A DNA stretch of 44,789 nt from positions 1 to 44,789 of the IMG/VR virus record IMGVR_UViG_3300033143_005424; one strand, written 5' to 3'. Below the pieces are notes generated by a model. That model worked only from the letters and a program-made list of their open reading frames with translations. It ran no database searches and was not told where the DNA came from. Of this stretch, positions 19,009 to 43,487 are shown one piece after another (positions within the stretch are counted from its first letter, which is position 1; every line of letters starts with the position of its first letter). A program made the position numbers and the translations under genes. This DNA comes from a virus.

Positions 19009-19171
19009 CGAATTCACAATTCCTTTCTTCTTTACTAAAATAAAAGAGATCTATTGGAGTCCATCCTTCTTTTAACATATCAACGGTATCTATTAATCTT
19101 TTTTTATCTTCTTCAAGTTTTTCAATACCACGATTAAAAAGATTAGATAATCTTCGGTAATATAAAGACAT
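18977..19171 (-). CDS. Small helical protein (64 aa)
   Basis: The start MSLYYRRLSNLF at 19171 follows AAGGAGG; an upstream TTG is less likely. The product has a Lys/Glu-rich helix (about 17-38) and an acidic end. Its last 32 nt overlap the radical-SAM start and it begins just after the stop of TNSSS-motif protein 3, so it is part of the coupled operon. No family is recognised. Confidence 0.5.
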   Translation of the reverse strand: MSLYYRRLSNLFNRGIEKLEEDKKRLIDTVDMLKEGWTPIDLFYFSKEERNCEFDEQNDETNYS

Positions 19172-21714: not shown

Positions 21715-21938
21715 TATTTTTTATCCTTCTTCGGAACTTCAATTCCGGCTTCTTTTAGAAAGTCTTCCCAATCGTCACCGGCTTGGGCTTTTAACATTCC
21801 TATTGCAATTTTTGCGTTTGTCATTTGCAGATCCAAAAGCAAATCAACCCTTCGACAAGTTCTTTCAAATGATTCCGCAATATCACAAACGGCATTTACA
21901 AAATCGTTATCCTGCTGATATTCAGAAAATAGACTCAT
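21714..21938 (-). CDS. Small helical protein (74 aa) between two nucleotidyltransferases
   Basis: The product is predominantly helical (FVNAVCDIAESFERTCRRVD; LQMTNAKIAIGMLKAQAG) with an acidic/basic tail ending KKDKK. Its start overlaps the CCA-enzyme stop (ATGA) and its stop overlaps the RlaP start (TAATG), so the three are translated together. A partner or adaptor for one of the nucleotidyltransferases is inferred. No family is recognised. Confidence 0.6.
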   Translation of the reverse strand: MSLFSEYQQDNDFVNAVCDIAESFERTCRRVDLLLDLQMTNAKIAIGMLKAQAGDDWEDFLKEAGIEVPKKDKK

Positions 21939-23275
21939 ATATTCTCCTTTAATATTACTGCTATTTGAGTTAATAAATCAAAATCATTCCAATCAGGATT
22001 AAGAATAACTAGATCCAATAAAATAGTTTTGATTTTTCCTATTTCTGGACCTGGTTTCAACCCTGTAACTTCCATAATATGTTTTCCATTGATAGCTAAA
22101 TCGCCGAATTTATTAGGGGATTTTCTCTTAATTTCAAACATAATATTATGAACAATTTTATTAATCTTTTCTTTAGGATACCCTCCTTTTGTCGAGTTAG
22201 CAAGACTATCTGACATTTTCAACTGAAGAAACTCTTTCCAAGAAATTTCATGTTCATTTAACATTTGTAGAGTTCGTCGTGTTGCTCTAGGTGTTTTGAA
22301 ATTTCTCATATGTTTTCCAGTGAGTGTTGTTATATATTTGATTTCTTTATTTGAAAATCTTAAATGTTTTAATTCAACGTTAAGGCAATCAGCTCCTTTT
22401 TCAGCATGTCTATGAAAATGCAAATCATTGGTTTTTGGATTCCAAGAACATGCACCAGGTTTTCCAACATCATGAAGATAACCAGCTAATTTCAGTAGAG
22501 GTTTTCTTATAGGAAGATTATCACCACAAATATATGAATGGTCAATTACTGATTCTTCATGCCATCTACCATGATCCTTATAAGCATAACAATCATCTAA
22601 AGAAGGAAATATATATTCAAGAGCACCTATTTCATATAAGGCATGAAAAAAACGAGATGATTTCTTGATCCTTGTTATAGTTTTCATAATCTCCTTATTG
22701 ATTCTTTCTGGATCAACAAAATCAGGGATTAAATGGGCAAAGTAAATAAGTGCTTCTTTTGTCTTTTCTTCAAATGTTCCATTGATTAACGCTTTGAATC
22801 TGCATGCTCGAATCATCCTATTCGGGTCTTCAAATATTCGCTTCTCAGGACTCCCCACGAAGCGTATAACGCGTTTTTGTAAATCTTCACGCCCATGATA
22901 TGGATCCACAACATCACCGGTGTATTGACAAAATGCTGCGGCATTTATGGTTAAATCACGACGTTTTAAATCTTCAAGAATATCCCCAGCTACTTGAACT
23001 TCAACTTGTTTATCTGATAATCCTGTGTATCTATCAGTTCTGAAAGTAGCCACTTCAATTCCATCAACCATTACCACTTTAAACGATTTTCCAACCGTTT
23101 TGATATTATGCCCTTCAAAAATTTTCTCTACTTCTTCAGGTAAAGCTGCGGTCACAACATCTTCATCATCTGCGGGAACTCCTCGTAAAAGATCACGAAC
23201 AGCTCCCCCAACTATGTATGTATCATAACCGCAATCACAAAGTCTTTCAACTATTTCCTCTCTAGTTATTTTCAT
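21935..23275 (-). CDS. cca: CCA-adding-type tRNA nucleotidyltransferase with HD domain
   Basis: The 446-aa product carries YIVGGAVRDLLRG with the Asp37/Asp39 metal pair in DDEDV, then RRDLTINAAAF and EDPNRMIRACRF, all class II poly(A)/CCA polymerase blocks. An HD domain follows at about 240-310 (LAGYLHDVGKP, later FHRHAEKGAD), and then a helical tail. Full-length architecture matches bacterial CCA enzymes that add or repair tRNA 3' ends. GGAGGTG precedes the ATG. In a phage this may keep tRNAs usable after host nucleases attack; a pure poly(A) activity cannot be excluded. Confidence 0.88.
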   Translation of the reverse strand: MKITREEIVERLCDCGYDTYIVGGAVRDLLRGVPADDEDVVTAALPEEVEKIFEGHNIKTVGKSFKVVMVDGIEVATFRTDRYTGLSDKQVEVQVAGDILEDLKRRDLTINAAAFCQYTGDVVDPYHGREDLQKRVIRFVGSPEKRIFEDPNRMIRACRFKALINGTFEEKTKEALIYFAHLIPDFVDPERINKEIMKTITRIKKSSRFFHALYEIGALEYIFPSLDDCYAYKDHGRWHEESVIDHSYICGDNLPIRKPLLKLAGYLHDVGKPGACSWNPKTNDLHFHRHAEKGADCLNVELKHLRFSNKEIKYITTLTGKHMRNFKTPRATRRTLQMLNEHEISWKEFLQLKMSDSLANSTKGGYPKEKINKIVHNIMFEIKRKSPNKFGDLAINGKHIMEVTGLKPGPEIGKIKTILLDLVILNPDWNDFDLLTQIAVILKENI

Positions 23276-26682: not shown

Positions 26683-26869
26683 TGAAATAGCTGAGTATAG
26701 GCAAATTTTACACGATAATGTTTTTTCTTGTATGGAAATGAGTAAACAATCCTGGATTGATACTATGATGATGCCCGTAAAAACATTTTCTGATTACCTT
26801 AAGTGGAAGTCTACTCTTGAGGAAGAAAAGAAAAAATTAATGGAAGAGGAGGCTGCAAAAGGTGGCTAA
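26663..26869 (+). CDS. Helical protein (68 aa) in +1 frame, possible frameshift extension
   Basis: The first start is GTG at 26663 with no ribosome site, inside the last codons of the previous gene. The product is helical (AEYRQILHDNVFSCMEMSKQ; WKSTLEEEKKKLMEEEAAK). It could be made by a +1 shift at TTT-TTT-C of the upstream gene, giving a longer fusion as in tail-assembly chaperones, or by coupled re-initiation. Its end overlaps the gp25-like start. Both arrangements keep it in the baseplate unit. Confidence 0.5.
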   Translation: MKSTQHNEIAEYRQILHDNVFSCMEMSKQSWIDTMMMPVKTFSDYLKWKSTLEEEKKKLMEEEAAKGG

Positions 26870-27299
26870 TTTACTAGATAGATTTAATAAAAATGCAATA
26901 GGATCCAAAGGAAACATTGCTGATTATATTTCTATTATAATATCTTCCGGTGATTTTAAACGAGTCACAAATCTAGAAGTAATATTAAATTCGTGGAGTA
27001 ATATTTTATTAACCCCTCTCAGAACTTATGATCATGACCCTACATACGGGAGTGATTTATATAAGATGATATTTGAACCTGCTGATGAAATGACATCTGA
27101 AAAAATTGAAAGAGAGATTGAATCTAAAATTACTTTGTTTGATGATCGTGCCACAATTGAAGATATTTCTATTGATTTTCTTACAAATCAAAAAGGATTT
27201 AATTTGAGCATTACAGTTGATTACGAAGGAACTTCTGGAGAATTAAAAACTACAATTGATGAATCTCTATATTTTAAATTTATGGAAGTTACTGAGTGA
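26862..27299 (+). CDS. Baseplate wedge protein, gp25-like
   Basis: GTG start with AGAGGAGG 9 nt upstream. The 145-aa product matches the gp25/IraD-like fold: an N-terminal helix, then NILLTPLRTYDHDPTYGSDL, FEPADEMTSEKIEREIE and a strand LSITVDYEG. In T4, gp25 joins the wedge to the sheath start and initiates sheath assembly. Length is normal for the family. It is followed by the cysteine-motif pair and the gp6-like array. Confidence 0.85.
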   Translation: MANLLDRFNKNAIGSKGNIADYISIIISSGDFKRVTNLEVILNSWSNILLTPLRTYDHDPTYGSDLYKMIFEPADEMTSEKIEREIESKITLFDDRATIEDISIDFLTNQKGFNLSITVDYEGTSGELKTTIDESLYFKFMEVTE

Positions 27300-27311
27300 G
27301 GATAAATTAAT

Positions 27312-27956
27312 ATGACAGAGATAGATAAAAAATTATTAGAAGAAGCTTGTAAACATGTTCTTCTTGATATAGCTGTTAATAGTACCCATTTAAAAGAGAA
27401 TGTTACATTTAAGCAACATGTTGGTGTATGTAATACAATAACTGAAATGACTTACGAAGAAGCTGTATCTTATGTTTTTAATAAAGGTGAAATATTAGAT
27501 GAATTTGGAATAAGAGATTTTGAAGGTAAATTTAAAAAAATGTTAAAATATGGAATGGCAGCTATTGCAGGAGGAGTTGTAGCTGCTATGGGAGCTGTAT
27601 CAACAGCATTGGTTGCCCCCGCAATAGGAGTTTTTGTTTATTATTTATTTAGAAAAGTAACTGATCCTTGTTGGCAGGCATGCATTAAAAAGATGCCGAT
27701 GAGTACAGAAAATCAAATATGTAAATATCAATGTCATGTAACTGCTGCTAAAAATATAGTTCGTGATATAAAAGTAGAAATGAACAAATGTAGTCAAACC
27801 AAAAATCCACCAAAATGTACTAAAGCACTTCAAAAACAATATATAAAATGGTCTAAAAAATTACAATCAGAGATAATAAATTTAAGACAAGCAACTGCTA
27901 AAGCAGATGAGAAAAGAAGAAAACAGCAAGAAAAAGAAAGAAAGGCCAAAAGATAA
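27312..27956 (+). CDS. Cys-motif membrane protein 1 (214 aa)
   Basis: Residues 30-58 (VTFKQHVGVCNTITEMTYEE) match the same region of the next gene (LSFKEHLELYDYVTNLSE), so the two are paralogues. A long hydrophobic segment spans about 80-113 (GMAAIAGGVVAAMGAVSTAL and onward). Then come Cys120-x3-124-x12-137-x3-141-x18-160-x8-169, and a very basic tail (KADEKRRKQQEKERKAKR). A membrane segment followed by a stable Cys domain and basic tail suggests a virion protein that enters the host envelope, but this is inference. Confidence 0.6.
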   Translation: MTEIDKKLLEEACKHVLLDIAVNSTHLKENVTFKQHVGVCNTITEMTYEEAVSYVFNKGEILDEFGIRDFEGKFKKMLKYGMAAIAGGVVAAMGAVSTALVAPAIGVFVYYLFRKVTDPCWQACIKKMPMSTENQICKYQCHVTAAKNIVRDIKVEMNKCSQTKNPPKCTKALQKQYIKWSKKLQSEIINLRQATAKADEKRRKQQEKERKAKR

Positions 27957-27970
27957 TTATGGAGAAACTA

Positions 27971-28495
27971 ATGACCAGAGATTCTTTATTAGAAATAATA
28001 TCAAATAATACTTCAATACGAAATAAATTATCATTTAAAGAACACTTAGAATTATACGATTATGTTACAAATCTTTCAGAAATTAACTTAGCTAAATTAA
28101 TCGAAGAGGTAGAACCTCCTGAAACTAATCCTAAATTACAAAAGTTTTTAACTATGGGACTTGCAGCAGCAAGTTTGTTATTGCCTGTTCCGGGATTAAC
28201 AGCTGTTGTTTTATATGCAACAGATATAAATATGTATAAGTGTAGAATGAGATGTGAAAAGGAAGGATCTTCAAATAAAGAATTATGTTATAGGAAGTGT
28301 AAATATTTAGCGACTAAATGGGCGGTGAAATGGGTAGAAGGTGAAATTAAAAAATGTAGTAAAACTAAAACTCCTTTTAAGTGTCAGAAAAAATTATTCA
28401 AACTTTTAAAAGCGGTTAAATTAAAAGAAACGAAAGAAGAAATTATATTCAAGCAAAAACAAAAGGAAGCTAACTGGAAGGCATCAAGGAGATAA
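27971..28495 (+). CDS. Cys-motif membrane protein 2 (174 aa)
   Basis: The start MTRDSLLEII at 27971 follows ATGGAG with 6-nt spacing and aligns with the start of its paralogue; an in-frame ATG at 27959 is less likely. A hydrophobic segment spans 60-82 (TMGLAAASLLLPVPGLTAVV). The Cys pattern 91-x3-95-x10-106-x3-110-x18-129-x8-138 matches the upstream paralogue almost exactly, including the final CSKTKTPFKC against CSQTKNPPKC. The tail is basic. A tandem duplication of an unknown virion or envelope protein. Confidence 0.6.
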   Translation: MTRDSLLEIISNNTSIRNKLSFKEHLELYDYVTNLSEINLAKLIEEVEPPETNPKLQKFLTMGLAAASLLLPVPGLTAVVLYATDINMYKCRMRCEKEGSSNKELCYRKCKYLATKWAVKWVEGEIKKCSKTKTPFKCQKKLFKLLKAVKLKETKEEIIFKQKQKEANWKASRR

Positions 28496-28497
28496 AT

Positions 28498-29145
28498 ATG
28501 CAAAAATTTCAGCGTATTTATGATTACATTCATGAATATCAAAGTTTGGTTTATGACTATTATTCCAAAATTGCCGTTGCATATTTAGTTACTTATTATA
28601 ACCTTGATAAAGATGAAACCGTTTGGGACGATACTGATTTGTTTGGTGGTTCTTATGAAAGAACAGGTACTGATCTCAGTGGAATAAAACGAAATAAAAT
28701 TTTATTACTTCCTGTTTTCTTTCCAGAAGAAGTTAGTACTGTATTTGATGGTCAAGAAACAGGTTACCATAAGGTAAATGAAACCTCCTTTGTAATGCCA
28801 AGTACATATGGAATAACTCCATACCCGGGAGATATAGTCAAATTAGAACAAGAATATTTAAATCCAACAGATGATACATATCCATTATTTATAGTGGAAG
28901 GAGTTGAAATATCAGTAAATACTGAAAGACGTTTTTGGAAAATTAAATTAAAAACATTTGAAAATCAAAAAGTTTCTGCTATTGATGTTCAAGTTACAAA
29001 TACTTATGCTTTTATGGAATATGATAAAACAATTCATACATTAGAAGATTCCGCACTTATGACAAAGCTCCTATATAAAAACAGTCTATTACGGGAAAAT
29101 CTAAAACATCTATATGACGACAATTCGGGTTTCTATTTAATATAA
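28498..29145 (+). CDS. Baseplate-region protein (215 aa), unknown
   Basis: The gene starts 2 nt after the previous stop. The product has an N-terminal helix (1-35), a segment NETSFVMPSTYGITPYPGDIV that looks like an OB or beta-barrel entry, and strands LFIVEGVEISVNTERRFWKI; the C terminus (180-215) is helical. No enzymatic residues stand out. Its position between gp25-like/Cys-motif genes and the gp6-like array argues for a wedge or hub component. I do not recognise a named family. Confidence 0.5.
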   Translation: MQKFQRIYDYIHEYQSLVYDYYSKIAVAYLVTYYNLDKDETVWDDTDLFGGSYERTGTDLSGIKRNKILLLPVFFPEEVSTVFDGQETGYHKVNETSFVMPSTYGITPYPGDIVKLEQEYLNPTDDTYPLFIVEGVEISVNTERRFWKIKLKTFENQKVSAIDVQVTNTYAFMEYDKTIHTLEDSALMTKLLYKNSLLRENLKHLYDDNSGFYLI

Positions 29146-29157
29146 AAGGAATAATAT

Positions 29158-31605
29158 ATGTCAGATTCTATTTCAACTCAGATTAATTTATCAAGAGATT
29201 CTATAAGAGAGCAATTGATTTCCTATATGAAGAATAATCTTGAACTTGAAAATGTGGATCTTACGAAATCGTCATTTCTATCATTTTTAGTAAATGTTTT
29301 ATCAAGTCTAACAAGTAATTTATTATTCTATCAAATGTCTGTTTATAAAGAATTCTTTTTAACACAGGCGCAACTTCCCGAAAGTATTTTTAATTTATCT
29401 GCCTTTCTAGGTTATAATTCGCCAAATGCAAATTATTCAAATGCAACTGCAATTGTTACCGTTCCGTTTGGGTTTCCAGATGCAACCAATATATTTACAA
29501 TTCCTACTGGGTTTAAATTTAAAACAGATAATGAAATTCAATTTGTTACCTATTATACAGTGACAGTTACTGTAACTAGTAATTCAAGTGTAACTGTTGT
29601 ATTAACAGAAGGAACTAAAAGATATAATTTAGCCGTTGATGTTGGTAGTTCGGATTTTTCATTTGCTCTACCATTAAGACAATATAAGACAGTTATACAA
29701 GAATTTAAGATTGATGATTATCTTGAAGAATATCAATTTGTTACAATTGATGTTCCTATGACGGGCAAAGTTGCTGAAATGGAAGTAAAATTTATAGATC
29801 CAACTGATCTATCAGAAACAATATGGACGGAATTTGATAGTTTATATCTTATGAATGAAACATCAGAAGGGTATGTTTCAAGAAGAACCGATTCAGGAAG
29901 AAGATTATATTTTGGAAATAATTTAATTGGGGTTCAACCTACTGCTGGATCAACATTAATAGTTACAACGAATGAAACAGAAGGAGCTAATGGAAATATA
30001 ATAGCCGGATCAATTAGAACAGGCGAACGTCTTTATACTACAATTGATTTAGGAACAAATCAATTAGTAAGTTATGATGTAACAAATCCATCTTCAGCTA
30101 CTGGAGGAACTGACGAAGAATCTCTAGAAGCGATTAGAAGTAATTCTATTGCTGCTCTTACAAGTTTAACAAGATTAGTAACTGAAAATAATTATAAAAA
30201 TATAGATACTGTAATTCCAAATGCCCCTCTTGGAGCAAATTCTCTTACAGTCAAAAAAACATCTGATATAAAAACAAATGAAACTAATTTATATAGTTCA
30301 ATTGAATTTGATGGTGATATTGTTCCTACAAGATCTATTTATTATGAAGTTCCTTATTCTACTACTTTTATTCCTCGTGGAACAACAATAACATTTGATT
30401 CAATAGACTACTATACTATTTTTTATATGAACATTGATATTTTAAATTCGGTTGCTGAATATATATATATTTTGGACGAACTTGAGCAAATTCCTACACT
30501 TATTACTAGTTATTCTTCACAATACGATCTTATTATAAGTAATCTTGTTGTATCTAAAGTTGGTAACAAAGCGGTATTTACACTTCACTATATAAGTACA
30601 GAAACTAATTATGAAAATTGTACTTGCAAAATGCAATTTGCTTCAACTGAAATTACTCACGCAATGACAAATGATTCAACTGCAAGTACTTTCACATATG
30701 AATTTCCTTTATATACCACAATTCCGGAAGATGATCAATTATATTACTTTACATTAACAGATCCATCATCTATAGATATGGCTAGATATTCAGCAACACT
30801 TACATTTGCCAAAGATTGTTCTGGATTCATGTTATCAAATACCAATTATGACGGGACAGATACAACAACTATATATGATATTCCAGTAATAAAGAAAAGT
30901 TATTATGATAGTATTAATCAAAGAACATTTGAAAGTTCTGTATTACAACCTATAATTTCATCATTAGGATTAACTAGTTATAGAATGTTATCAGATTTTA
31001 CAAATTTTAAATTTGTAAATACTACTGGAAATTGTGTAAATATGAAATACAATCCCCCAACTCGAACCTCAGTTATTAATTTAAGAGGTTCCGCCCCAAC
31101 AGGAATGGATGTAGGGGATAGATATATTTTAACTACTGGAACATATCAAAATTATATATTCGAAGCAACTGATTCAACATCTGGAACATATATAGAAGCT
31201 ATAACTGATGATATTGTACAAGTTACTAGTTTAAATAAATTTTATATTTATTCAGATATAGGTTGGATTGAAATTCCAGAGTATACAATTCCATTTGAAA
31301 TTGAAATTGAGATATTCAAGGAATCATCATATGCAGATTCTAATACTACATTATCAGACACAATTAAAACAGCTATTGTAAATAATTTTCAAAGTCGATT
31401 TGGAGCAAACCTTGCTTTATACAGGTCCGAAATAATTGACACGGTTCAAAGTATAGATGGTATAGATCATTGTAGGTTATTACAACCTACATCAAATATA
31501 TTTTTCAGTTTCGAAATAAGTGATTTGTCTGAGGATGAACTATTGGAATATACCCCTGATTATGTTTATTTCGATTCTTCTAATATTACGGTAAGGATAA
31601 TATAA
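29158..31605 (+). CDS. Baseplate wedge protein gp6/Baseplate_J-like, intact copy
   Basis: In the 815-aa product, residues 1-100 (DSISTQINLSRDSIREQL; LFYQMSVYKEFFLTQAQLPE) are the N-terminal arm. About 100-350 is the Baseplate_J core (RRLYFGNNLIGVQPTAGSTL; NETEGANGNI; EEESLEAIRSN-type helix). About 350-557 is a beta region ending at KDCSGFMLS. From 571 comes a C-terminal module opening TIYDIPVIKKSYYDSINQR and ending DHCRLLQP...SNITVRII. In T4, gp6 dimers link the wedges into the inner ring. Two enlarged, split copies follow. Confidence 0.8.
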   Translation: MSDSISTQINLSRDSIREQLISYMKNNLELENVDLTKSSFLSFLVNVLSSLTSNLLFYQMSVYKEFFLTQAQLPESIFNLSAFLGYNSPNANYSNATAIVTVPFGFPDATNIFTIPTGFKFKTDNEIQFVTYYTVTVTVTSNSSVTVVLTEGTKRYNLAVDVGSSDFSFALPLRQYKTVIQEFKIDDYLEEYQFVTIDVPMTGKVAEMEVKFIDPTDLSETIWTEFDSLYLMNETSEGYVSRRTDSGRRLYFGNNLIGVQPTAGSTLIVTTNETEGANGNIIAGSIRTGERLYTTIDLGTNQLVSYDVTNPSSATGGTDEESLEAIRSNSIAALTSLTRLVTENNYKNIDTVIPNAPLGANSLTVKKTSDIKTNETNLYSSIEFDGDIVPTRSIYYEVPYSTTFIPRGTTITFDSIDYYTIFYMNIDILNSVAEYIYILDELEQIPTLITSYSSQYDLIISNLVVSKVGNKAVFTLHYISTETNYENCTCKMQFASTEITHAMTNDSTASTFTYEFPLYTTIPEDDQLYYFTLTDPSSIDMARYSATLTFAKDCSGFMLSNTNYDGTDTTTIYDIPVIKKSYYDSINQRTFESSVLQPIISSLGLTSYRMLSDFTNFKFVNTTGNCVNMKYNPPTRTSVINLRGSAPTGMDVGDRYILTTGTYQNYIFEATDSTSGTYIEAITDDIVQVTSLNKFYIYSDIGWIEIPEYTIPFEIEIEIFKESSYADSNTTLSDTIKTAIVNNFQSRFGANLALYRSEIIDTVQSIDGIDHCRLLQPTSNIFFSFEISDLSEDELLEYTPDYVYFDSSNITVRII

Positions 31606-31608
31606 AAA

Positions 31609-34600
31609 GTGTCAGATTCTATTTCAACACAAATTGATATATCAAGAGATTCTATAAAAGAACAGGTTAGTACATATCTTAAAGAATATCTTGAAATTGA
31701 AAATGTAGATCTTTCAAACTCCTCATTTTTATCATTCCTGGTAAATATTTTATCAACACTCACAGGAAATATATTATTTTACCAACTCTCCGGTTATAAA
31801 GAATTTTTCTTAACTCAAGCACAACTTCCTGAAAGTATTTCCAATTTATCTGCATTTCTAGGTTATCATTCAAACATGGCGGAATATGCGACTACAAATG
31901 TTGTTATGACTGTTGAGTTTAATTTTCCAGACGATTCAAATACATTTACAATTCCATCTGGATTTAAATTTAAAAGTAATAGTATAGAATTTGTAACTTA
32001 TTATACATCTGATGTAGAGGTCACAAGTAATTCAGAAGTTAATATTTTAATTACAGAAGGTGATAAAAAATACTATCTTCCAGTAACAATAGGAAGTGGA
32101 ACCTTTTCTTTTGCATTGCCGGTACGTCAATATAAAACAAATACACAAGAATTTCAGATAGATTTGGATATTGAACCTTATCAATTTTTAACCATTGATG
32201 TTCCCTTATCTGGAAAAGCTACATCTATAAATGTAACTATTTCAGAACCAGGAAATGCAGCAACTATTTTATGGACTGAATATAATAGTTTATACTTTTT
32301 AGATCAAACTACCAAAGGGTATGTCGTAAGAAATACAAGTTTTGGAAAAAGATTATTTTTTGGAAATGGTTTAATTGGAAGTCAACCTTCTGCAGGATCT
32401 AATATAACAATAGTTATAAATGAAACTGAAGGAACTATTGGAAATATTGATGCTGATTCTATTACATCTGGAGATAAAGTATATACATTTATAGAAACAG
32501 GAACTAATCAAGCAGTTAAATATACTATGACAAATCCTGTATCAGCTACATGTGGAAAAGATGAAGAATCGGATGAAGAAGTTCGAAGTAATTCTATTAA
32601 ACATATCACGAGTTTAGGAAATCTAGTAACAAATAATGATTATAAAAATATTGATGTTGTTGTTGACAATTCTCCTTTATCAGAAAATATTCTGGCAGTT
32701 TTAAAAAGATCTGATATAAAATTAAATGATATTCAACTATATAGTCCAATTGAATTTTCAAGTGAAATAACACCTACTAGAAATACTTATTATACAGATC
32801 GTACCGACTCGGGTATTGTTTCAAGAGGGACAATAGTAACAACAGATAATGTTGATTATTACACTCTTTTTGATTTAATATTAGATTATACTACTTTAAT
32901 TGCTAAATATAAATATGTAATGTATGAAATTGAACAAATCCCATCCTTAATAATAACACATACCAATTATGGTTTATATGTTATTAATTTAGTTGTTTCT
33001 AAATCAGCTTCTAAAGCAGTTTTTAAATTATATTATACAAGTACCGAATCAAATTTTGAGAATTGTACTTGTGAAATGCAAATTGTATCAAATGAAACAT
33101 CTTATAATATGGTTAATGATTCAACCTCGCAAACATTTATATATGAAATTGACCCATATACAACAATCCCTGATGATAAACAGAAATATTATTTTTCTAT
33201 ATCAAATCCATCATCCACATTAGTTTCAAAATATTCTACTTCTTTTACATTTGTTAAAGATTGTTCAAAATTTATGTTATCAACATTTGAATATACAGAT
33301 CCATATATTCCAGTTGAATCTTTTGATCCTGTTTCGGTTTCTCCTTTTTATACATGGGTTATTGAAGAAGATACTTATAGTAAAACAGATCCTCATCTAG
33401 ATCATAATATTATATTTAATTCTATTACTGGTAAAGTTGAAATAGTGTATATTGATGATAATGTAAATGAAGGAAGTTATCATATAAGCGGAAATAAAGA
33501 TTCCTTTACAGCCGGAGATTATAGATGCTCTAATATGCAATATCAATCCAAAATAATGTTGGATGATTTTGGTAATATATATTATGTTGGTTGGAGTGGA
33601 ACTGGTTATTTAGGTATTAAAGGTAATGGGTATGGTAGTTATTCTGCCGATGCTTATGATCTAGCTCCCGGGTATAAAATACACAATAGTGTGGGCGATA
33701 GATATAGTTACAGAGGATTTGATGTAATAACAGGTCTAAATGAAGGTGATATTCATGCGGTTTTTTATGGGTATAATTCAACTTTAATGATAAATTATGG
33801 GACTTACTATACAACAAATGTAACTGGATCATGGGTAACCAAATTTATTTCTGATAAATTTTCATATGTACCTAAAATCAAAATTGACAGTCTCGGAAAT
33901 TTATATATTGTTCTACCAAATACAACAACAAATGCTTATACAACAGTTATAGAAAGTTTAGGTACTTGGGAATCAACAAACTATTCTGCTATTGTTAATT
34001 CGTCAATTTCAATGGTTGGAATTGATTTTGATTCTAGTAATAACCTTCATATGGTTGGATTTCATTCATCTATAAATAGTTTAATTTATGCCACAAATGT
34101 GACAGGTGAATGGGTAAGTCAAACTATTACCCAAATTGATCCTTTAAATAATACAAGTGAATGGACCGGGTCTTATAAACAAATTTCATTTAAAATAGGT
34201 CGTAATAGAACGGTTTATATTCTTCATTATTACACAAGTCTATCAACTACAGCTGCCAAAATGGTTATGAGTAATAATGTTTCAGGTCAATTTATTAGTT
34301 CTATTGTGGATCAAGAAAATGAAACAGGAAGAACATATACTGATTCTGGTGTGCAAATGGATCTTTATATAAATAATATTCATGCTGTTTATTGTAAATA
34401 TAATCCTGGTTCTACAGTAATATATTCTTCTCTAGTTTACGGGGTATTCGGGGAATCAGGATATGTTTCATTAACAGATACTAATTACTGGGCTCCAGAT
34501 TCCACTATTTGTAGTTTTGACAGTACTTCTAATACATGGGTATCAGAGGATACATATTCACCAAAAGGTATAAGTCTAACTCCTATAAATAATTGGCAAA

Positions 34601-36930
34601 CAGAGTTTAGACCTACAAAAGCAATAGTCGATTATACAACAGATGTATATGGAAATGAGACCATAATTAAAGATTCAAATGGATCAACTATCGGAAGTTA
34701 TTCAGAAGTAGCCCCAGTATTACCTAGTGATATAACTTCAATTGAATACTCACTTCCACATGACTATGCTTGGATTTCAAATACATCCAATTTAGACCCA
34801 GTTATTACAAAAATAGATCTTACTACAAATATCGCTACGCTTCTTGATGTAGGACCAGAACCAGCTCATAATTATTTTGATGGAGAATGGTTCTGGGTGT
34901 CTCATATTAATGAATATTTTGCAAGATTATACAAAAGGTATGTAAGTGGGGGGTCAGCCGGTTCTAAAGATTTTGGTGATTGGACGAATCCAGCATATAT
35001 GGTAAGTGATGGAACTTATTTATGGCTCTCGTTTTATTCGACATCTACTACAACTAGAATAGCTAAAATAGATGGAACTCTAGCGCCCGGTAGTTGGATA
35101 GTAGATTCAATAGACGATCCTGATATACAATCTACCGTTGTAAGTCCTATATTTAATGGAACTGATATTTGGGCTAGTATAGGGTTTTCTTGGGATAATC
35201 CTGGAACTTTAGTAAAAATTAATACTACTACATGTTCAGTAACAAGTACATATTCTGATGGACCTACTATTAAAAACGCTATTACTGGTCTGATATTTGA
35301 TGGAGAATATTTGTGGTTTTCATGTTCTACATCATCAAGCCTAAATGACGCTTGGATTTCTAAATTTGATATTAATACAGGAACTGTAATTAATAGTGTT
35401 AATATTTATTCAGGGTATACGTTAGAATATGATGGAACTTATATGTATGTAAATGGATTTCTGACTAATACTATAACTGTAATAAATGCTGAAACATTTA
35501 GCATTGTAAACACTATATTACTTTCTGATACGTCAGGGTCGGGGTCATCAAGTTTGAGTTTTGACGGGGAAAGTATACTGTTGGCATGTGGGGATGGTTT
35601 TTATAGAGTAAATATTGAAACATATGATGTAAGTGGAAAACTTACTCTCGGCGGTTATAAATCTACTTTTATTACAACTAATGCTATACCAATAATAATG
35701 GAACCTAATTGTGCAACCATAGATAATAATCAATTAATTAGTATGAGAGTTCTTGCTTTACCATTTTACTCAATATATTATACTTTAGATGGAACTACTC
35801 CAACTAATCAAAGTAATTTATATACAGTTCCATTTTCACTTCCAAATAATTCTACAACCACAGTTAAAACGGTTGCAATTCATCCAGGGAGAAAAACATC
35901 TAAAGTAAAAACTATTGACTATACAACCGGTGGGGGTGAGATGGGACATATTTGGACTGTAAATAGGATTAGCAATACACTTTCAAAAGTAAATACAATT
36001 ACAAATACTACGGTTCAAACTATACCTGTAAAATCTAATGCATCTAAAATAGTTTATGATGGTACCTATCTATGGGTTTCAAACACATCAACAGATAGTG
36101 TATTGAAAATAGATCCAATATATGGGCATGTTTTATACCAGATAGATGTGCAAAATACCCCACAATATATGGTATATGACAATGGCTATCTTTGGGTATC
36201 TAATATAGACAGTCATAGTATATCAAAAATAGATACAACTTCAAATATTGTTGTTGTTAATATTCCATTACCAAACATTTTTCCGCAAAGAGGATTAGTA
36301 TTAGATGATAATAACGGTCTTTGGACTGCGGATAGTAGTAATGATCAACTGCTTCGAGTAGATATAATAACTCATGCAGTTACTACAGTAGCTGTAGGTA
36401 CCTATCCATATGGGGTTTTCTTCTTAGATGGTTATATTTGGACAGGAGATGTTCACCAAATGGCTGTTAATACTGTTTCAAAAGTTGATCCGATAACACA
36501 AACTCGAGTTGCACAAATAATGGTTGGAGATGAACCGGTAGGAATGACATTTGATGGTACCTATATTTGGGTTGCTAATTATTATGACCAGAATGTATCT
36601 AAAATAGAGGCTTCTACCAATACAGTTGTAAATACAATAGCTGTTGGTACTTCAAACCCACACAATATGCTTTTTGATGGAACCTTTGTTTGGGTTGTTT
36701 GTTTGGGTGGTTCGGTGTGTAAAATTGATCCTTTAACTGATAATGTAACTGAGATTTCTTTAACTACCAGCGCTTACAATATTATTATGGACGGAACTTA
36801 TATATATATTGGTCATTATGGGATTGAAAATACATTATCAAAAATTCATAGAATAACAAACGAATTAACAACTATTACAGTAGGATCTGGAGTTGATGGT
36901 CTGATTAAACACAATACAATCTTATTATAA
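31609..36930 (+). CDS. gp6-like N-terminal half fused to beta-propellers (first split copy, part 1)
   Basis: GTG start aligned with the other copies, AAGGAT upstream. Residues 1-557 repeat the intact copy up to KDCSKFMLS. Then the sequence departs: a sialidase-like propeller (about 580-960; repeats of the type 'TTNVTGSWVTKFI' and 'IDSLGNLYIV'), a linker, a YVTN-like propeller (about 1050-1360; 'FDGEYLWFS'), a chitobiase-type domain (about 1365-1440; IYYTLDGTTPT) and a second YVTN propeller (about 1445-1773; 'YDGTYLWVSN', 'FDGTYIWVANYY'). The gp6 C-terminal module is absent and is found on the next gene. Receptor binding by the propellers is inferred. Confidence 0.75.
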   Translation: MSDSISTQIDISRDSIKEQVSTYLKEYLEIENVDLSNSSFLSFLVNILSTLTGNILFYQLSGYKEFFLTQAQLPESISNLSAFLGYHSNMAEYATTNVVMTVEFNFPDDSNTFTIPSGFKFKSNSIEFVTYYTSDVEVTSNSEVNILITEGDKKYYLPVTIGSGTFSFALPVRQYKTNTQEFQIDLDIEPYQFLTIDVPLSGKATSINVTISEPGNAATILWTEYNSLYFLDQTTKGYVVRNTSFGKRLFFGNGLIGSQPSAGSNITIVINETEGTIGNIDADSITSGDKVYTFIETGTNQAVKYTMTNPVSATCGKDEESDEEVRSNSIKHITSLGNLVTNNDYKNIDVVVDNSPLSENILAVLKRSDIKLNDIQLYSPIEFSSEITPTRNTYYTDRTDSGIVSRGTIVTTDNVDYYTLFDLILDYTTLIAKYKYVMYEIEQIPSLIITHTNYGLYVINLVVSKSASKAVFKLYYTSTESNFENCTCEMQIVSNETSYNMVNDSTSQTFIYEIDPYTTIPDDKQKYYFSISNPSSTLVSKYSTSFTFVKDCSKFMLSTFEYTDPYIPVESFDPVSVSPFYTWVIEEDTYSKTDPHLDHNIIFNSITGKVEIVYIDDNVNEGSYHISGNKDSFTAGDYRCSNMQYQSKIMLDDFGNIYYVGWSGTGYLGIKGNGYGSYSADAYDLAPGYKIHNSVGDRYSYRGFDVITGLNEGDIHAVFYGYNSTLMINYGTYYTTNVTGSWVTKFISDKFSYVPKIKIDSLGNLYIVLPNTTTNAYTTVIESLGTWESTNYSAIVNSSISMVGIDFDSSNNLHMVGFHSSINSLIYATNVTGEWVSQTITQIDPLNNTSEWTGSYKQISFKIGRNRTVYILHYYTSLSTTAAKMVMSNNVSGQFISSIVDQENETGRTYTDSGVQMDLYINNIHAVYCKYNPGSTVIYSSLVYGVFGESGYVSLTDTNYWAPDSTICSFDSTSNTWVSEDTYSPKGISLTPINNWQTEFRPTKAIVDYTTDVYGNETIIKDSNGSTIGSYSEVAPVLPSDITSIEYSLPHDYAWISNTSNLDPVITKIDLTTNIATLLDVGPEPAHNYFDGEWFWVSHINEYFARLYKRYVSGGSAGSKDFGDWTNPAYMVSDGTYLWLSFYSTSTTTRIAKIDGTLAPGSWIVDSIDDPDIQSTVVSPIFNGTDIWASIGFSWDNPGTLVKINTTTCSVTSTYSDGPTIKNAITGLIFDGEYLWFSCSTSSSLNDAWISKFDINTGTVINSVNIYSGYTLEYDGTYMYVNGFLTNTITVINAETFSIVNTILLSDTSGSGSSSLSFDGESILLACGDGFYRVNIETYDVSGKLTLGGYKSTFITTNAIPIIMEPNCATIDNNQLISMRVLALPFYSIYYTLDGTTPTNQSNLYTVPFSLPNNSTTTVKTVAIHPGRKTSKVKTIDYTTGGGEMGHIWTVNRISNTLSKVNTITNTTVQTIPVKSNASKIVYDGTYLWVSNTSTDSVLKIDPIYGHVLYQIDVQNTPQYMVYDNGYLWVSNIDSHSISKIDTTSNIVVVNIPLPNIFPQRGLVLDDNNGLWTADSSNDQLLRVDIITHAVTTVAVGTYPYGVFFLDGYIWTGDVHQMAVNTVSKVDPITQTRVAQIMVGDEPVGMTFDGTYIWVANYYDQNVSKIEASTNTVVNTIAVGTSNPHNMLFDGTFVWVVCLGGSVCKIDPLTDNVTEISLTTSAYNIIMDGTYIYIGHYGIENTLSKIHRITNELTTITVGSGVDGLIKHNTILL

Positions 36931-36945
36931 GGAGAATAATAATTC

Positions 36946-39228
36946 ATGCAAGTTGGTACTGTATATATATCACCTGGAGATGGATCAGAAATACAACCAA
37001 CTGATACCATTACCATTACATGTGATACATCCGATGTTTATATTTATTATACTTTGGATGGAAGTACTCCTACACAGTTATCAACTTTATACACTGTCCC
37101 GTTTATAATTGGAGATAACACAACTCAAGTTAGTGCACGAGCGTTTGCTGTTCCTCAAGAAGTAACCCATTATATGAGATTAGAAAATGACGAAGCAATA
37201 GCAAATTTTGATATTGTATCAGACACAACTAATTCTATGGAATTGAGTGACATATCTTTATATAGTGATATTCCTCTAGTAGGAACATTAACAACTACAT
37301 TAATAGATGAAACTAATTTTTATGAACTTAGAGGGGCAAAAACAGATCCAAACACTAATATTCAACATATCTTTTATGTTGATAATGAAAATACTTTATA
37401 TCATGCATATGGGAATGGAGATTCATTTAATATAGAAGAAGTTACATCTAGTAGTCTTTATACACAATCTAATGTAAGTATAGCTTTTGATTCTTCTGGT
37501 GACATTCATTTAGCAGTAGCAGCTTTCAGCGAAGATGATATAAATTATCTAACTACCCGTGGGTATCTTGGATGGGGGGGTGTACAACGAGTAGGGCATT
37601 GCACTCCAGCTGATTCTTCGTATGATATTATAGACATTGTGGTTGATTCAAACGATGATATTCACATAATTTATACATATGGAACCTCCGGAATATTTCG
37701 ATCAAGTAAAATATCAGGAATTTGGTCAAAATTTCAAGTTGTATATGCTACAAATGATATTGAATCAACTGATATTGTTTCATCTCCAAAAATTAGTATT
37801 GATTCTGATAATGATATTCATATATACTTTAGATGGTATGATAATCTTGGAAGTGAAACATGGCATTTATATTATATGGTTCTTTATAGTAATTTCTATA
37901 TAACAATCCCAATAGATACATCGTTTAAATCAGGAACTTCTTTAGCCACTGATTTTAATGATAAGTCTTTCTTTTCAACTAATGAAGGGGTAACTTCTGA
38001 AAGATTAATATTAGGAGTTCTTGATTCTACATCAAGTCTATCATATGGAACTTCTGGAAGCGCTGGAGTGACAACACCTCCTATTGATTCCACATCTAAT
38101 TGGACAATATACTCTATATTACTTCCTCCTATTATTGATTCATTTGGTTTATTTCTAACTATATCTTTTAATAAAATGGTTATTATAGATGATATTATTT
38201 ATTTATTGAGTGTTTTTGAAAGTATAGAAGCATCACCAAATACATCGTATTCTATATTATCATCTATTCAACAAAGCAAACTTGGGATTAATACTTGGAA
38301 TTCATATATTCTTACAGATGGTGACGAAATTATTATAAATGAATATAACGATATTTGGGCTGTTAATAATACACTTTATATTACAGGATATCAAAATAAT
38401 ACAATTACAGGTGATCGTTCATTGTTTACATCTGAGTATGATTCAGAAAGAATTATATATGGGTCTCCTGGACCAGGGGCTGCTACTATTTATGATATAC
38501 CAGTTATAAAGAAAAGTTATTATGATGGTATTAACCAAAGGGTTTTTGAGAGTCAAATTTTACAACAAATAGTTTCAAATATAAGTTTAGAAGACTATAA
38601 AATACTGACAGATTTTTCAAATATTAAATTCACTAATACAGATGGTAAATGTATAAATATGGGTTATAATACAACAAACCGGGTATCAATAATTAATTTA
38701 ATAGATACGCTTCCTTCTATTTCTAATGATGGAGATAGATATATTTTAACAAGTGGGGATTATACAAATTATATAGCCCAATGTACTGATTCAACTGCAA
38801 ACACCTGGATATATAAAGAACCTACAACAAACGATATTGTTACGATTACTGCTTTATCAACAAAATATATTTATTCATATAATGGTTGGCTTGAAATTCC
38901 AGAATATCAAATTCCTCTTGAACTTGATATTGAAATATTTAAAGAAAATTCATATATAGGATCTAATACAGAGTTAGCAACATTTATCAGAGAAAGTGTT
39001 CTAACATCATTTCAAAGTAGATTCGGGTCTAATATTTCTCTATATAGGTCTGAAATTATTGATGTTGTTCAAAGTTTGACTGGAGTTGACCATTGTAGAT
39101 TATTACAACCAGTAACTGATATATTTTTCAATTTTGATTTAACAAATTTGACAAAAGCTGAATTATTAACCTATGGACCAGATTACATTTATTTTGGATC
39201 TGATAATATAACGGTAAGGATTCTATAA
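36946..39228 (+). CDS. Chitobiase domain, propeller and gp6-like C-terminal half (first split copy, part 2)
   Basis: AAGGAG precedes the ATG at 36946. Residues 1-75 are a chitobiase-type domain (YIYYTLDGSTPTQLSTLYTV) and about 80-125 a small beta module. About 125-505 is a sialidase-like propeller ('VDSNDDIHIIY', 'IDSDNDIHIYF'). Residues 513-760 match the intact gp6-like C-terminal module from TIYDIPVIKKSYYDGINQR to SDNITVRIL. It thus supplies exactly what the preceding gene lacks. It is in the same frame as that gene, separated by three TAA codons in 18 nt. Confidence 0.75.
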   Translation: MQVGTVYISPGDGSEIQPTDTITITCDTSDVYIYYTLDGSTPTQLSTLYTVPFIIGDNTTQVSARAFAVPQEVTHYMRLENDEAIANFDIVSDTTNSMELSDISLYSDIPLVGTLTTTLIDETNFYELRGAKTDPNTNIQHIFYVDNENTLYHAYGNGDSFNIEEVTSSSLYTQSNVSIAFDSSGDIHLAVAAFSEDDINYLTTRGYLGWGGVQRVGHCTPADSSYDIIDIVVDSNDDIHIIYTYGTSGIFRSSKISGIWSKFQVVYATNDIESTDIVSSPKISIDSDNDIHIYFRWYDNLGSETWHLYYMVLYSNFYITIPIDTSFKSGTSLATDFNDKSFFSTNEGVTSERLILGVLDSTSSLSYGTSGSAGVTTPPIDSTSNWTIYSILLPPIIDSFGLFLTISFNKMVIIDDIIYLLSVFESIEASPNTSYSILSSIQQSKLGINTWNSYILTDGDEIIINEYNDIWAVNNTLYITGYQNNTITGDRSLFTSEYDSERIIYGSPGPGAATIYDIPVIKKSYYDGINQRVFESQILQQIVSNISLEDYKILTDFSNIKFTNTDGKCINMGYNTTNRVSIINLIDTLPSISNDGDRYILTSGDYTNYIAQCTDSTANTWIYKEPTTNDIVTITALSTKYIYSYNGWLEIPEYQIPLELDIEIFKENSYIGSNTELATFIRESVLTSFQSRFGSNISLYRSEIIDVVQSLTGVDHCRLLQPVTDIFFNFDLTNLTKAELLTYGPDYIYFGSDNITVRIL

Positions 39229-39230
39229 AA

Positions 39231-42200
39231 ATGACAGACCCTATTTCAACACAAATTGATGTATCAAGAGATTCAATAAAAAGTCAAGTCGGTATGTACT
39301 TGAAAGAATATCTTGAGCTTGAAAATGTTGACCTTACAAAATCGTCATTTTTGTTATTCTTAGTAAATATATTATCAACATTAACAGGAAATATATTATT
39401 TTACCAACTTTCATTATATAAGGAATTCTACTTAACACAAGCACAATTACCTGATAGTATATTCAATTTATCAGCTTTTCTTGGGTATAATTCATCATCT
39501 GCAACATATGCTACTTCTAATGTAACAATGACAGTTGATTTTAATTTTCCTGATTCGTCAAATACATTTACTATACCTTCAGGATTTAAATTTAAAAGTG
39601 ATAGTATAGAGTTTGTAACTTATTATAATTCTGCTATTACAATTACTAATAATTCAGCAGTATCTATTTTAATAACTGAGGGGAATAAGAAATATTATCT
39701 ACCTGTAACTATAGGAAGCGGATCATTCTCATTTTCATTACCTATCAGACAATATAAAATTACATCCAAAGAATTTAAACTTGCGTCTAATCTTGAACAA
39801 TATCAATTTGTTACAATTGATGTGCCTATAGATGGAAAAGTTTCATCCTTATCAGTAGGTATAACTGTACCTGGAGATGCTATAGTAAAAACATGGACAG
39901 AGTATAATAATTTATATTTAATGAGCGACACAATTGAAGGGTATGTTTCAAGAAGAACTGCCGATGGAATTACATTATTTTTTGGAAATGGTCTAATAGG
40001 AGCACAACCTGTCGCTGGATCATCGGTAACTGTTAATATAAATGAAACAGAAGGTATAAGTGGAAATGTTGCAGAAGGAACAATTAATAAAGGAGAAAAA
40101 ATATATACCTATCTAGATTCTGGAGCAACCCAAGTTGTTAAATACACAGCAACAAATTCAGTTGCGGCATTTAATGGAAAAGAAGAAGAAGCATTAGAAG
40201 AAATTAGAAGTAATTCTATTAAGTCAATAACAAGTTTAGGAAATCTAGTCACTAATAATGATTATAAAAATATAAATGTTGTAGTTGATGATTCTCCGTT
40301 AGAACCAGATACTATAGCTGTTTTGAAAAGATCAGATCTTAGATTGAACGATATTCAATTATATAGTCCTGTAAAGTTTGAAAATGTAATAACACCGACA
40401 AGAAATGAACAAAGATCTCAAAATTATTATGGAGTTCCTATTCCTAGAGGAACAGTAATATCGTCTAATGGTACAGATTATTATACGCTTTTTGATTTAG
40501 ATGTAAATACAGATAGTTCAATGGTAAATTATAACTATGTAATGTATGAGATTGAACAAATTCCATCTTTAATTAAAGATTATGAAACTACATATGATTT
40601 TGCGGTTACTAATTTAATAGTTTCTAATAGTAATAATACATCTATATTTGAATTGTATTATACAAGTACTGAGGTAAATTGTGATTTGTGTTCATGTGAA
40701 ATGCAAATAGCTTCAAACGAACGAACATATGATATGACAATTGATTCAACTTCAAGTATTTTTACATTGAATATAACTCCTTATACATTACTACCTGCTG
40801 ATGAGCAAATATATTACTTTACAATAACAAATCCAAGTGGTACGGCAGTATCTAAATATTCAGCAACGTTTACTTTTATTAAAGACTGTTCAAAATTTAT
40901 GTTATCAAGTATTGGTGATTATATTGATTCGACCTCTGTACCAGGAGATCCTATAATAATAGATGTAGATCCAGAACCTCCAATTGTTGGTCCTTTATAT
41001 ACTTGGGAAATTACTGATGATATATATAGTTTTCTAAATATAATATATAATCATATTGATGGAAATACACATATAACATATGAAGGTAATGAAGGAATTT
41101 ATTATATATATGGAAATAATGGGGTGTATTCAAATCCAGAATTTTTATTTCCTGATGAAGACTATAGTGAAGAATATTGTACAATGGCATATGATAGTAC
41201 AGGAACTATGTATTTTAGTGGAAGAACTGATGATTGGGAGCTACGGTATTATAAATATGGAACCCAGACAGAAATATTAGATGAAGGTCCACTTGGATCA
41301 ACTTTCAGTGTAGATATGATAATAGATGATAATGATTATGTTCATATTTTTTATCGAAAATCGAATATACTATATCATACAACAAATTTAAGCGGGGCAT
41401 TTGTAAGAGAAGTAATATATACCCATTCTGATGAAAACCCTTGGGGGGCTTCAGTTGTTGCAAAAATAGATAGGGATCAAAATTATCATATTGCTGTTAT
41501 AATACCTGCTCAATATATTCCTGAAACACATGTTTATACTTCTAATATTGCTTATATTTATGGAAATACTGGGAATTGGAGTTCCCCTGACATAGTAGAT
41601 ATTGAAAATAGATGGGTTCGTGTACATATGGATATTGATAAGATAGAAGTAGGAGTAGTTCATATATCATATTATTCACATGATGATGATCATATTAGAT
41701 ATACTTCGAATAGTTCAGGAACTTGGGAATATACTAATATACACACATTACCTCCTGTTGATTTAAATAATGATTGGGATATTGCAACCAATAATGTAAT
41801 TACACAAAATAATAAAGTATATATTATAACATGTTATCGTAAGTATGTCTGGGCCCTTGATATTTATAAGTCTACTATAGTAATATCGGTTAAAATAAAC
41901 AATAATTGGATTTCATATAATTTACTTGAGTATACAGATAAAATTATTGCTTTTAGTAGCATGGCTACAAGTTTGTATCATAATTTAATATATTTAGTTT
42001 ATAAGACTACTGCTAGTGGAAATATTAAAAGTGTAACATCTGGAGTATATGGTGAAAGTGGATGGGTTGATGTAACAAATGATCAATTTTGGGAACCAAC
42101 TCCATTGTTGGATAATACTAGTTGGGATAGTACCTCAGAATCTTGGATTTCAAATGATTTAACAAATAGTATTGATCTTATTCCAACTGGAGACTGGGAA

Positions 42201-43487
42201 ACAGATAAAACATTTTCAGAAGCAAGAGTACTTTGTAATGTAGAATCCCCCCCGATTGTTACTGCTTCATTTAAAGATATTAATGAACAAATGATTGGTG
42301 AAACATCAGCTTTTTCTGAAGAAACTAGTAGTGAAGCATCAGTTACATATTACGAAGCGGCTCCTTTTGCTTGGGTAGGAACTGGAACCGGTTATATAGA
42401 TAAAATTAATTTAGATGATGATTCTATAGAAAACATACTTGTAGGCAGCAATGCCGAAAATACTTTTTATGACGGTGAATATATGTGGGTTTCATGTAGT
42501 GACTCTTTTAATCCATTGATCCAAAAACTTCATAAATATACAAATGAACTTCTTTGTACAACTTTAACTTCTAGTGGAGCTTATGGAACAGTTTTATCAA
42601 AGTTTCCAGAACAAATGTGCAAAGCTAGTTACCTTTGGTTTGTTTGTAATACTAATGACTCAGGAAGTTATAGAGTTCAAAGGATAAGTCTTTATAATTG
42701 TTATAAATATATAGGTATTTCAGAACCTACAGTTGGTGATTATGCTAAAGGTATAGCATATGATGGGAGTAGTATTTGGATTGCTTGGAGTGGCGTATTA
42801 GGTAATTTTAGTCAGTATGGTATTCATTTAGAGTCTTATGGATCATTTGGAATAAGATCAGAAAGATTATTATTTGCTGGAGGGTATTTATGGTTTTCAG
42901 CATATGTAGCCGGGGAGTATAGAATATGTAAATTTGATGTATCTTCTAAAACTGTTCTTGATTATGCAGTAATTCCTGATTACACATATGATTTAGCGTT
43001 TGATGGAGTTAATGTTTGGACTACTATAAGAAATGACGCTATTGCAGTTAAAATAAATGCTTCAACAATGACAATTGCAGATAATGTTGCTGTTGGGAAT
43101 GACCCAAGAGGAATTACTTTTGATGGAAGTAATATTTTAGTATGTAATTATTATGATGATACTATATCAAGAATTGCTGTTTTAAATGGAAGTGGAACTA
43201 CAACAATAACAGGCATAACAGAAGAACCATGTAATATTGAAATTAGTGAACCTGTTATATATCCGAATCCACATCCTGGTTCAGTACAAGTAGGAACTAC
43301 TTTAGCATTAACATGTAGTATATTAGATTATGATATTTACTACACAATAGATGGTTCAGACCCTAATCCCGGTACTTTATATACTGCTCCTTTTACAATA
43401 CCTCATGGCGTAGTTAAAGTAAAAGCAGTAGGAACTTATAATGGTAAAATACAATTATACAATTATACAACTTATTCTCCTTTATAA
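39231..43487 (+). CDS. gp6-like N-terminal half fused to propellers (second split copy, part 1)
   Basis: AAGGAT lies before the ATG; the product opens MTDPISTQIDVSRDSIKSQV. Residues 1-557 repeat the gp6-like N-terminal part to KDCSKFMLS. The rest holds a sialidase-like propeller (about 590-960), a linker with WDSTSESWIS, a YVTN-like propeller (about 1045-1335; 'YDGEYMWVSC', 'FDGSNILVCNYY') and a C-terminal chitobiase-type domain (about 1340-1410; IYYTIDGSDPNPGTLYTAPF). Compared with the first split copy it lacks the second YVTN propeller. The gp6 C-terminal module is again missing. Confidence 0.75.
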   Translation: MTDPISTQIDVSRDSIKSQVGMYLKEYLELENVDLTKSSFLLFLVNILSTLTGNILFYQLSLYKEFYLTQAQLPDSIFNLSAFLGYNSSSATYATSNVTMTVDFNFPDSSNTFTIPSGFKFKSDSIEFVTYYNSAITITNNSAVSILITEGNKKYYLPVTIGSGSFSFSLPIRQYKITSKEFKLASNLEQYQFVTIDVPIDGKVSSLSVGITVPGDAIVKTWTEYNNLYLMSDTIEGYVSRRTADGITLFFGNGLIGAQPVAGSSVTVNINETEGISGNVAEGTINKGEKIYTYLDSGATQVVKYTATNSVAAFNGKEEEALEEIRSNSIKSITSLGNLVTNNDYKNINVVVDDSPLEPDTIAVLKRSDLRLNDIQLYSPVKFENVITPTRNEQRSQNYYGVPIPRGTVISSNGTDYYTLFDLDVNTDSSMVNYNYVMYEIEQIPSLIKDYETTYDFAVTNLIVSNSNNTSIFELYYTSTEVNCDLCSCEMQIASNERTYDMTIDSTSSIFTLNITPYTLLPADEQIYYFTITNPSGTAVSKYSATFTFIKDCSKFMLSSIGDYIDSTSVPGDPIIIDVDPEPPIVGPLYTWEITDDIYSFLNIIYNHIDGNTHITYEGNEGIYYIYGNNGVYSNPEFLFPDEDYSEEYCTMAYDSTGTMYFSGRTDDWELRYYKYGTQTEILDEGPLGSTFSVDMIIDDNDYVHIFYRKSNILYHTTNLSGAFVREVIYTHSDENPWGASVVAKIDRDQNYHIAVIIPAQYIPETHVYTSNIAYIYGNTGNWSSPDIVDIENRWVRVHMDIDKIEVGVVHISYYSHDDDHIRYTSNSSGTWEYTNIHTLPPVDLNNDWDIATNNVITQNNKVYIITCYRKYVWALDIYKSTIVISVKINNNWISYNLLEYTDKIIAFSSMATSLYHNLIYLVYKTTASGNIKSVTSGVYGESGWVDVTNDQFWEPTPLLDNTSWDSTSESWISNDLTNSIDLIPTGDWETDKTFSEARVLCNVESPPIVTASFKDINEQMIGETSAFSEETSSEASVTYYEAAPFAWVGTGTGYIDKINLDDDSIENILVGSNAENTFYDGEYMWVSCSDSFNPLIQKLHKYTNELLCTTLTSSGAYGTVLSKFPEQMCKASYLWFVCNTNDSGSYRVQRISLYNCYKYIGISEPTVGDYAKGIAYDGSSIWIAWSGVLGNFSQYGIHLESYGSFGIRSERLLFAGGYLWFSAYVAGEYRICKFDVSSKTVLDYAVIPDYTYDLAFDGVNVWTTIRNDAIAVKINASTMTIADNVAVGNDPRGITFDGSNILVCNYYDDTISRIAVLNGSGTTTITGITEEPCNIEISEPVIYPNPHPGSVQVGTTLALTCSILDYDIYYTIDGSDPNPGTLYTAPFTIPHGVVKVKAVGTYNGKIQLYNYTTYSPL

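Follow-up and report, generated by a model that had tools for sequence, protein, structure and literature searches.

Can a baseplate wedge protein be opened at one internal point to take in propeller domains of receptor-binding type, so that the baseplate itself would become the adhesin? The question is raised by a 44,789-base stretch with 30% GC from the IMG/VR virus record IMGVR_UViG_3300033143_005424 (the window), in which an earlier note had read positions 29158 to 39228 as an intact gp6-like gene followed by a second copy split around sialidase-like, YVTN-type and chitobiase-type domains.

The wedge gene and its tandem copies

The baseplate cassette starts at 26862 and is read throughout on the plus strand. 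Its upstream part (26862-29145) comprises a gp25-like gene with a Pfam match (26862-27299), two variable genes and a conserved gene of 215 aa (28498-29145). Copy A follows (29158-31605), encoding an intact protein of 815 aa with an N module (residues 1-566) and a C module (570-815). In line with the gp6-like identity proposed in the earlier note, copy A belongs to the gp6/J-type baseplate wedge proteins, an assignment on which profile, fold and synteny are concordant. Its sequence matches the PHROG profiles phrog_219 (E 1e-27) and phrog_6 (E 4e-15), as well as the PDB profiles of 9f4a, ‘Baseplate wedge protein gp6’ (E 4.6e-9), and P1 BplA (E 2e-6). The AF2 model, built with 62 aligned sequences (mean pLDDT 85.7), contains N-terminal helices, a beta core, a beta-sandwich around residues 439-551 and the C module, and its fold matches include P1 BplA (Z 16), phiKZ (15.3), T4 gp6 (14.2) and J-type proteins. 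The gp25-like gene belongs to the same tail/baseplate operon, and relatives share the gene order.

Elsewhere in the cassette, the slot that separates the gp25-like gene from the 215-aa gene is highly variable within the family; the two adjoining variable genes of the window (27312-28495, 214 and 178 aa) have a single fused gene of 390-403 aa as their counterpart in two relatives (L126 and L128). Further upstream, an RlaP-type RNA-repair nucleotidyltransferase adjoins a PolyA_pol-type CCA-adding enzyme (20662-23275), and a radical SAM/SPASM gene lies at 17956-19017.

Downstream of copy A stand, in order, B1 (1,773 aa), B2 (760 aa), C1 (1,418 aa) and C2, which runs to the window end. B1 begins with a GTG codon whose Shine-Dalgarno sequence lies within the 3' end of copy A, and its N module (residues 1-564, 31609-33300) matches residues 1-566 of A at 57% identity. 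The corresponding C module is found at the end of B2 (residues 514-760, 38485-39228), where it is 59% identical to A 566-815 (E 2.6e-98) and is predicted to complete the gp6-like fold. Alignment of copy A to the two products fixes the boundaries at A 1-566 and 566-815, and the homology between the last 248 aa of the B2 product and A 571-815, on which the earlier note had staked its reading, is present at that same E value. Between the matched modules lie about 1,209 residues in B1 (33301-36930) and 513 in B2. The opened copy is thus confirmed, and the outlined stretch of 29158 to 39228 omits a third copy that is opened in the same way (39231-43487 and 43506 onward). The N module of C1 (residues 1-562, 39231-40916) is 53-54% identical to A and 64% to B1, the match to A running over residues 1-578 at 53%; it is followed by an insert (40917-43487) and by C2 (43506-44789), which is cut by the window end. 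The full C2 gene, present on contig 3300033153_008111 (27401-29704), encodes 767 aa with the C module at its end. The joints between A and B1, between B2 and C1, and between C2 and the next gene have a TAAGGAT stretch in common in the last codons, as expected under end-to-start duplication of whole genes.

Contigs, relatives and the history of the copies

Contig 3300033153_008111 is 99.8% identical to the window over 28.6 kb and extends beyond the window end. It contains the whole layout, including the completed copy C, and carries a 373-aa gene and then the large terminase 3' of C2. Over the 28.6 kb, contig and window differ by 12 SNPs and two indels, one of which is a 20-nt deletion in the contig at about 36856 that alters the final residues of B1. 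Contig 3300033143_006579 has the end of C2 as its first feature, followed by the terminase and a tape-measure-like gene, and exactly 55 of its bases are in common with the window end. Given this overlap, it and the window may be products of one assembly, so that clear independent support comes from one contig (3300033153_008111) and partial support from 3300033143_006579. As a separate observation, 3300033153_008111 starts with the reverse complement of window positions 15618-15731 fused directly to 16166, at the 10-bp inverted repeat ATAATGAAAA; this junction reflects an inversion of 548 bp or else a chimeric end of the contig.

Relatives were collected from viral-contig scans and one genome scan, with one scan represented by the best 80 of 383 confirmed relatives. 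The 113 distinct intact relatives listed encode proteins of 699-987 aa, and in 110 of them a gene of the same 373-aa type stands 3' of the single intact gene, within 2.5 kb and mostly at less than 100 bases. No opened copy was found in the other relatives listed (in one scan, the best 80 of 383), and rarer opened copies could exist elsewhere among the 383. Among the relatives listed, interior N-only or C-only genes are likewise confined to this phage; the two exceptions, fragments in L061 and L093, have the look of frame breaks. Fifteen other records of the family (45 to 312 kb) hold one gp6-like copy each, and both the CHB domains and the inserts' propellers are absent from these records, all of which may be fragments. 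Copies B and C are known from one phage, represented by two near-identical contigs and a partial third.

A large minus-strand gene located 3' of the relatives' cassette was considered as a displaced receptor-binding gene and rejected, since it matches tape-measure proteins and a similar gene is also present in this phage. All three relatives from the genome collection (L149, L150 and L151) sit in archaeal MAGs (Heimdallarchaeota, Thermoplasmatales and Woesearchaeota); the gene order of the stretches in these MAGs is that of the phage itself, and misbinning may therefore explain their placement.

In the trees of the N and C modules, copies A, B and C group as a single clade (support 99 and 98, respectively) within which B and C are sisters (100 and 96), and in both trees the branches of B and C are not longer than that of A. 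B and C retain the near-invariant residues of the modules to the same degree as A, at 60 of 65 and 23-24 of 25 positions. When B is compared with C, the wedge modules have dN values of 0.26 and 0.20 and the inserts 0.87 and 0.73, with dS at 0.93-1.20; since dS approaches saturation and the inserts align with many gaps, this contrast is approximate, and its direction and size alone are relied on here. The wedge modules are strongly constrained, while the inserts are diverging fast between B and C. Decaying or accidental duplication, or an assembly chimera, might account for extra copies seen in one phage only and for a 20-nt deletion that gives B1 different final residues in the other contig. 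Such an origin is nevertheless barely credible: the same layout recurs in a contig that belongs to a different record, with partial support in a third contig, the frames stay open over about 10 kb, the modules are under constraint, and the B and C branches are no longer than that of A.

The simplest order of events suggested by the sequences is a duplication, a single opening, and then a duplication of the opened pair. Within one lineage of large myophages, a gp6/J-type wedge gene would have undergone tandem duplication, and one daughter would have gained a block of propellers and CHB-type, carbohydrate-binding-like domains at the hairpin turn that joins the N and C modules. The opened gene would by then have become two genes, with the break adjoining the CHB domains, and the opened pair would have been duplicated once more to give B1 plus B2 and C1 plus C2.

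The opening site and the two-gene arrangement

In copy A, the opening site corresponds to positions 30832-30894. DSSP of the AF2 model assigns residues 559-564 and 569-579 to successive strands with a four-residue turn (D565-D568) between them, and from their order the two strands are predicted to pair as a hairpin. The match of B1 to A ends after KDCSKFMLS and that of B2 starts at TIYDIPVIKKSYYD, in agreement with the single internal opening point described earlier; the spacing between the two motifs in copy A, given there as 12 residues, measures about 10. In both B and C, the opening sits at this turn, with the N-module strand on B1 or C1 and the C-module strand on B2 or C2. Among relatives, the stretch around the turn is 20 to 29 residues long (a spread of up to 9), and one gp6-like gene (L151, 964 aa) carries a second copy of the beta-sandwich region directly 5' of the C module, which indicates that the area before the C module tolerates additions. 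A different gp6-like gene (L065, 987 aa) has an internal partial duplication located in the C module.

The N and C halves of copies B and C do not lie on one chain. Both the B1/B2 and the C1/C2 breaks contain several stops in frame, together with a Shine-Dalgarno-like stretch and an ATG, and the halves are therefore separate genes; at the B1/B2 boundary (36928-36948), these elements are the B1 stop, two further in-frame stops, a GGAG Shine-Dalgarno sequence and the B2 ATG. The break adjoins CHB domains, falling directly between two of them in C and after one extra propeller in B. Readthrough or recoding that would fuse B1 and B2 was considered and is ruled out by the multiple in-frame stops and the start with a ribosome site at both junctions; the frame relation is also broken by the 20-nt deletion of the other strain. 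Both partner genes share the reading frame of their predecessors (a chance of about 1/3 given one origin), which weakly hints that the pairs arose by fission of one former reading frame, the alternative being insertion of a segment that spans two genes.

Each pair would then be translated as two polypeptides, and the N module of the first together with the C module of the second would restore a single wedge subunit, with the two hairpin strands paired across the break. Alternatively, no two-chain subunit would form, and B1, B2, C1 and C2 would be four accessory adhesins docking separately on copy A, with the N-terminal helical bundle of B1 and the C module of B2 as anchors. Separate docking accords with pair members that are distinct genes with their own ribosome sites, and with half-modules that are each well conserved on their own. 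We consider it unlikely, however, since the cut splits the predicted hairpin exactly and both strands are retained in both pairs, since pairing and gene order were held through the second duplication with module trees that agree, and since the first C-module strand is disordered when B2 is modelled alone. In this model, the pLDDT of the C module is mostly above 90 over about residues 570-760 and below 50 in the first strand, which fits a partner strand sitting on B1. A fold search with the same model returned a list filled by propellers, with no gp6-type chain listed for the C module. The N module of B1 and the C module of B2 could also be placed in different subunits.

Propellers, CHB domains and known systems

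CHB_HEX_C_1/Fn3_assoc domains are present in all four proteins at 38-50 bits, against Pfam cut-offs of 22-23, with E values of 1e-12 to 1e-13 in B1 and B2. The B1 insert, delineated from Pfam, a PDB match and repeat motifs, contains in order a propeller-like region (about 577-1010), a second propeller-like region with DGxYLWV repeats (about 1056-1380), a CHB_HEX_C/Fn3_assoc domain (1383-1438) and a YVTN/Vgb-type propeller (1447-1770). This terminal propeller matches PF21783 (YNCE, 30.4 bits against a cut-off of 27.1) and the surface layer protein 1l0q (E 1e-19). The first part of B2 (36946-38484) consists of a CHB domain (residues 6-68) and a lectin/sialidase-type propeller (about 112-500), assigned from Pfam, a partial model and a fold match. 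In copy C, the C1 insert comprises propeller-like regions and a terminal CHB domain (1347-1402) without the last YVTN propeller of B1, and the portion of C2 within the window holds a CHB domain and a propeller.

This inventory bears out the earlier description as to propellers, CHB domains in B1 and B2, and a YVTN-type propeller in B1, the last two recovered by Pfam, whereas the ‘sialidase-like’ label lacks direct sequence support. A regex search of the inserts found neither Asp boxes nor a FRIP motif, and a weak SBBP repeat is the sole sequence-level trace in that direction. In fold, the partial B2 model (mean pLDDT 61.5) resembles propeller lectins and sialidases, and the best matches of its propeller are fucose-binding propeller lectins and sialidases (from Z 16.8 downwards). 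Since propellers resemble one another, this match suggests sugar binding by the B2 propeller without proving it. The sialidase fold similarity, together with sequence similarity to virginiamycin B lyase, could also be taken to mean that the inserts act enzymatically, as a depolymerase, a sialidase or a lyase-like protein, and cleave surface sugars instead of binding a receptor. With Asp boxes and FRIP motif absent, a Vgb (virginiamycin B lyase) match in B1 that stays under its Pfam cut-off (41.1 of 50 bits), and CHB domains and best fold matches that are those of binding proteins, an enzymatic role appears very improbable.

Searches for close relatives of the inserts' propellers in viral contigs and annotated phages matched only the same phage, and a CHB search of viral contigs gave matches only in runs of large unrelated proteins. 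Such runs occur in three records (L217, L218 and L219), with proteins of up to about 1,600 aa, several of which have CHB-type domains; they are possibly fibre arrays.

On balance, we lean towards split wedge subunits that are rejoined through the hairpin and display lectin-like propellers as baseplate adhesins. The propellers would protrude at the turn, forming receptor-binding arms of the baseplate ring next to intact copy A. We infer that B1, B2, C1 and C2 are incorporated into the virion, that the N and C halves rejoin, that the hairpin turn faces outward, and that the inserts bind a carbohydrate or receptor. A more far-reaching form is put forward tentatively, as somewhat short of an even prospect: the two polypeptides would complement each other across a broken beta-hairpin, the turn would serve as a socket for multi-propeller adhesins, and B and C sockets would join intact A in a mixed ring, with the baseplate itself as the receptor-binding device.

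Copy A and both modules share their fold with T4 gp6, P1 BplA and the pyocin and Mu J-type proteins (Z 14-16 for T4 and P1), all of which are shorter. To our knowledge, these wedge proteins have no propellers and are encoded by one gene each.

The opened copies may work like evolved Dit without being members of that group, as profile and fold both assign the protein to the gp6/J type. In lactococcal and other siphophages, evolved Dit carries carbohydrate-binding domains internal to the baseplate ring protein, which promote adsorption and measure 168-319 aa in the phages studied (PMC10688798). The likeness lies in an internal insert of carbohydrate-binding type, here predicted from sequence and model, with flanks colinear with the short form. 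Evolved Dit, however, is a siphophage distal tail protein made as one polypeptide from a single copy, whereas here a wedge protein has taken in well over 1,000 aa per copy and is encoded by two genes.

In the Anabaena myophage A-1(L), the wedge protein gp31 has an insertion domain of ~100 residues (81-180) that holds the long tail fibre (PMC10966104). It resembles the present case as a gp6-type wedge protein with an extra, outward-reaching inserted domain, and differs in that the insert is small, lies elsewhere in the chain and is a fibre holder rather than an adhesin, on one polypeptide. In phiKZ, gp131C is a seven-bladed propeller (4GBF) at the baseplate periphery and a suspected host binder (cited in PMC4901313). 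A large-phage baseplate, a gp6-like fold (9xqs, the best Foldseek match) and a peripheral propeller are thus shared with phiKZ, and no evidence or description was found in the literature of that propeller lying within a gp6-like chain or of a split pair. The baseplate of Staphylococcus phage phi11 has a beta-propeller receptor-binding protein that likely binds sugar (GlcNAc) (PMC4901313); it differs in being a separate trimeric protein, outside any wedge subunit.

Adhesion domains in ring proteins (PMC10688798), insertion domains in wedge proteins (PMC10966104) and the peripheral propeller of phiKZ are therefore known elements, and the claim that this layout is not known from described phages narrows to the split wedge with propellers. 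In mainly open-access literature, no precedent was found for a tandem-duplicated wedge protein split in two genes around propellers, and no open-access paper was found that brings baseplate wedge, beta-propeller and phage together.

If the favoured reading is true, this phage would possess a contractile-tail counterpart of evolved Dit. It would also illustrate, in nature, how a structural ring protein can be cut open at a single turn, divided in two and made to carry very large adhesion domains while the constraint on its core is kept. Testable questions follow as to whether two chains can assemble into a wedge subunit and whether the hairpin turn is a general insertion site of gp6-like proteins. 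Finally, duplicates of the same age with conserved cores and diverged inserts would offer a clean record of apparent receptor-binding diversification.
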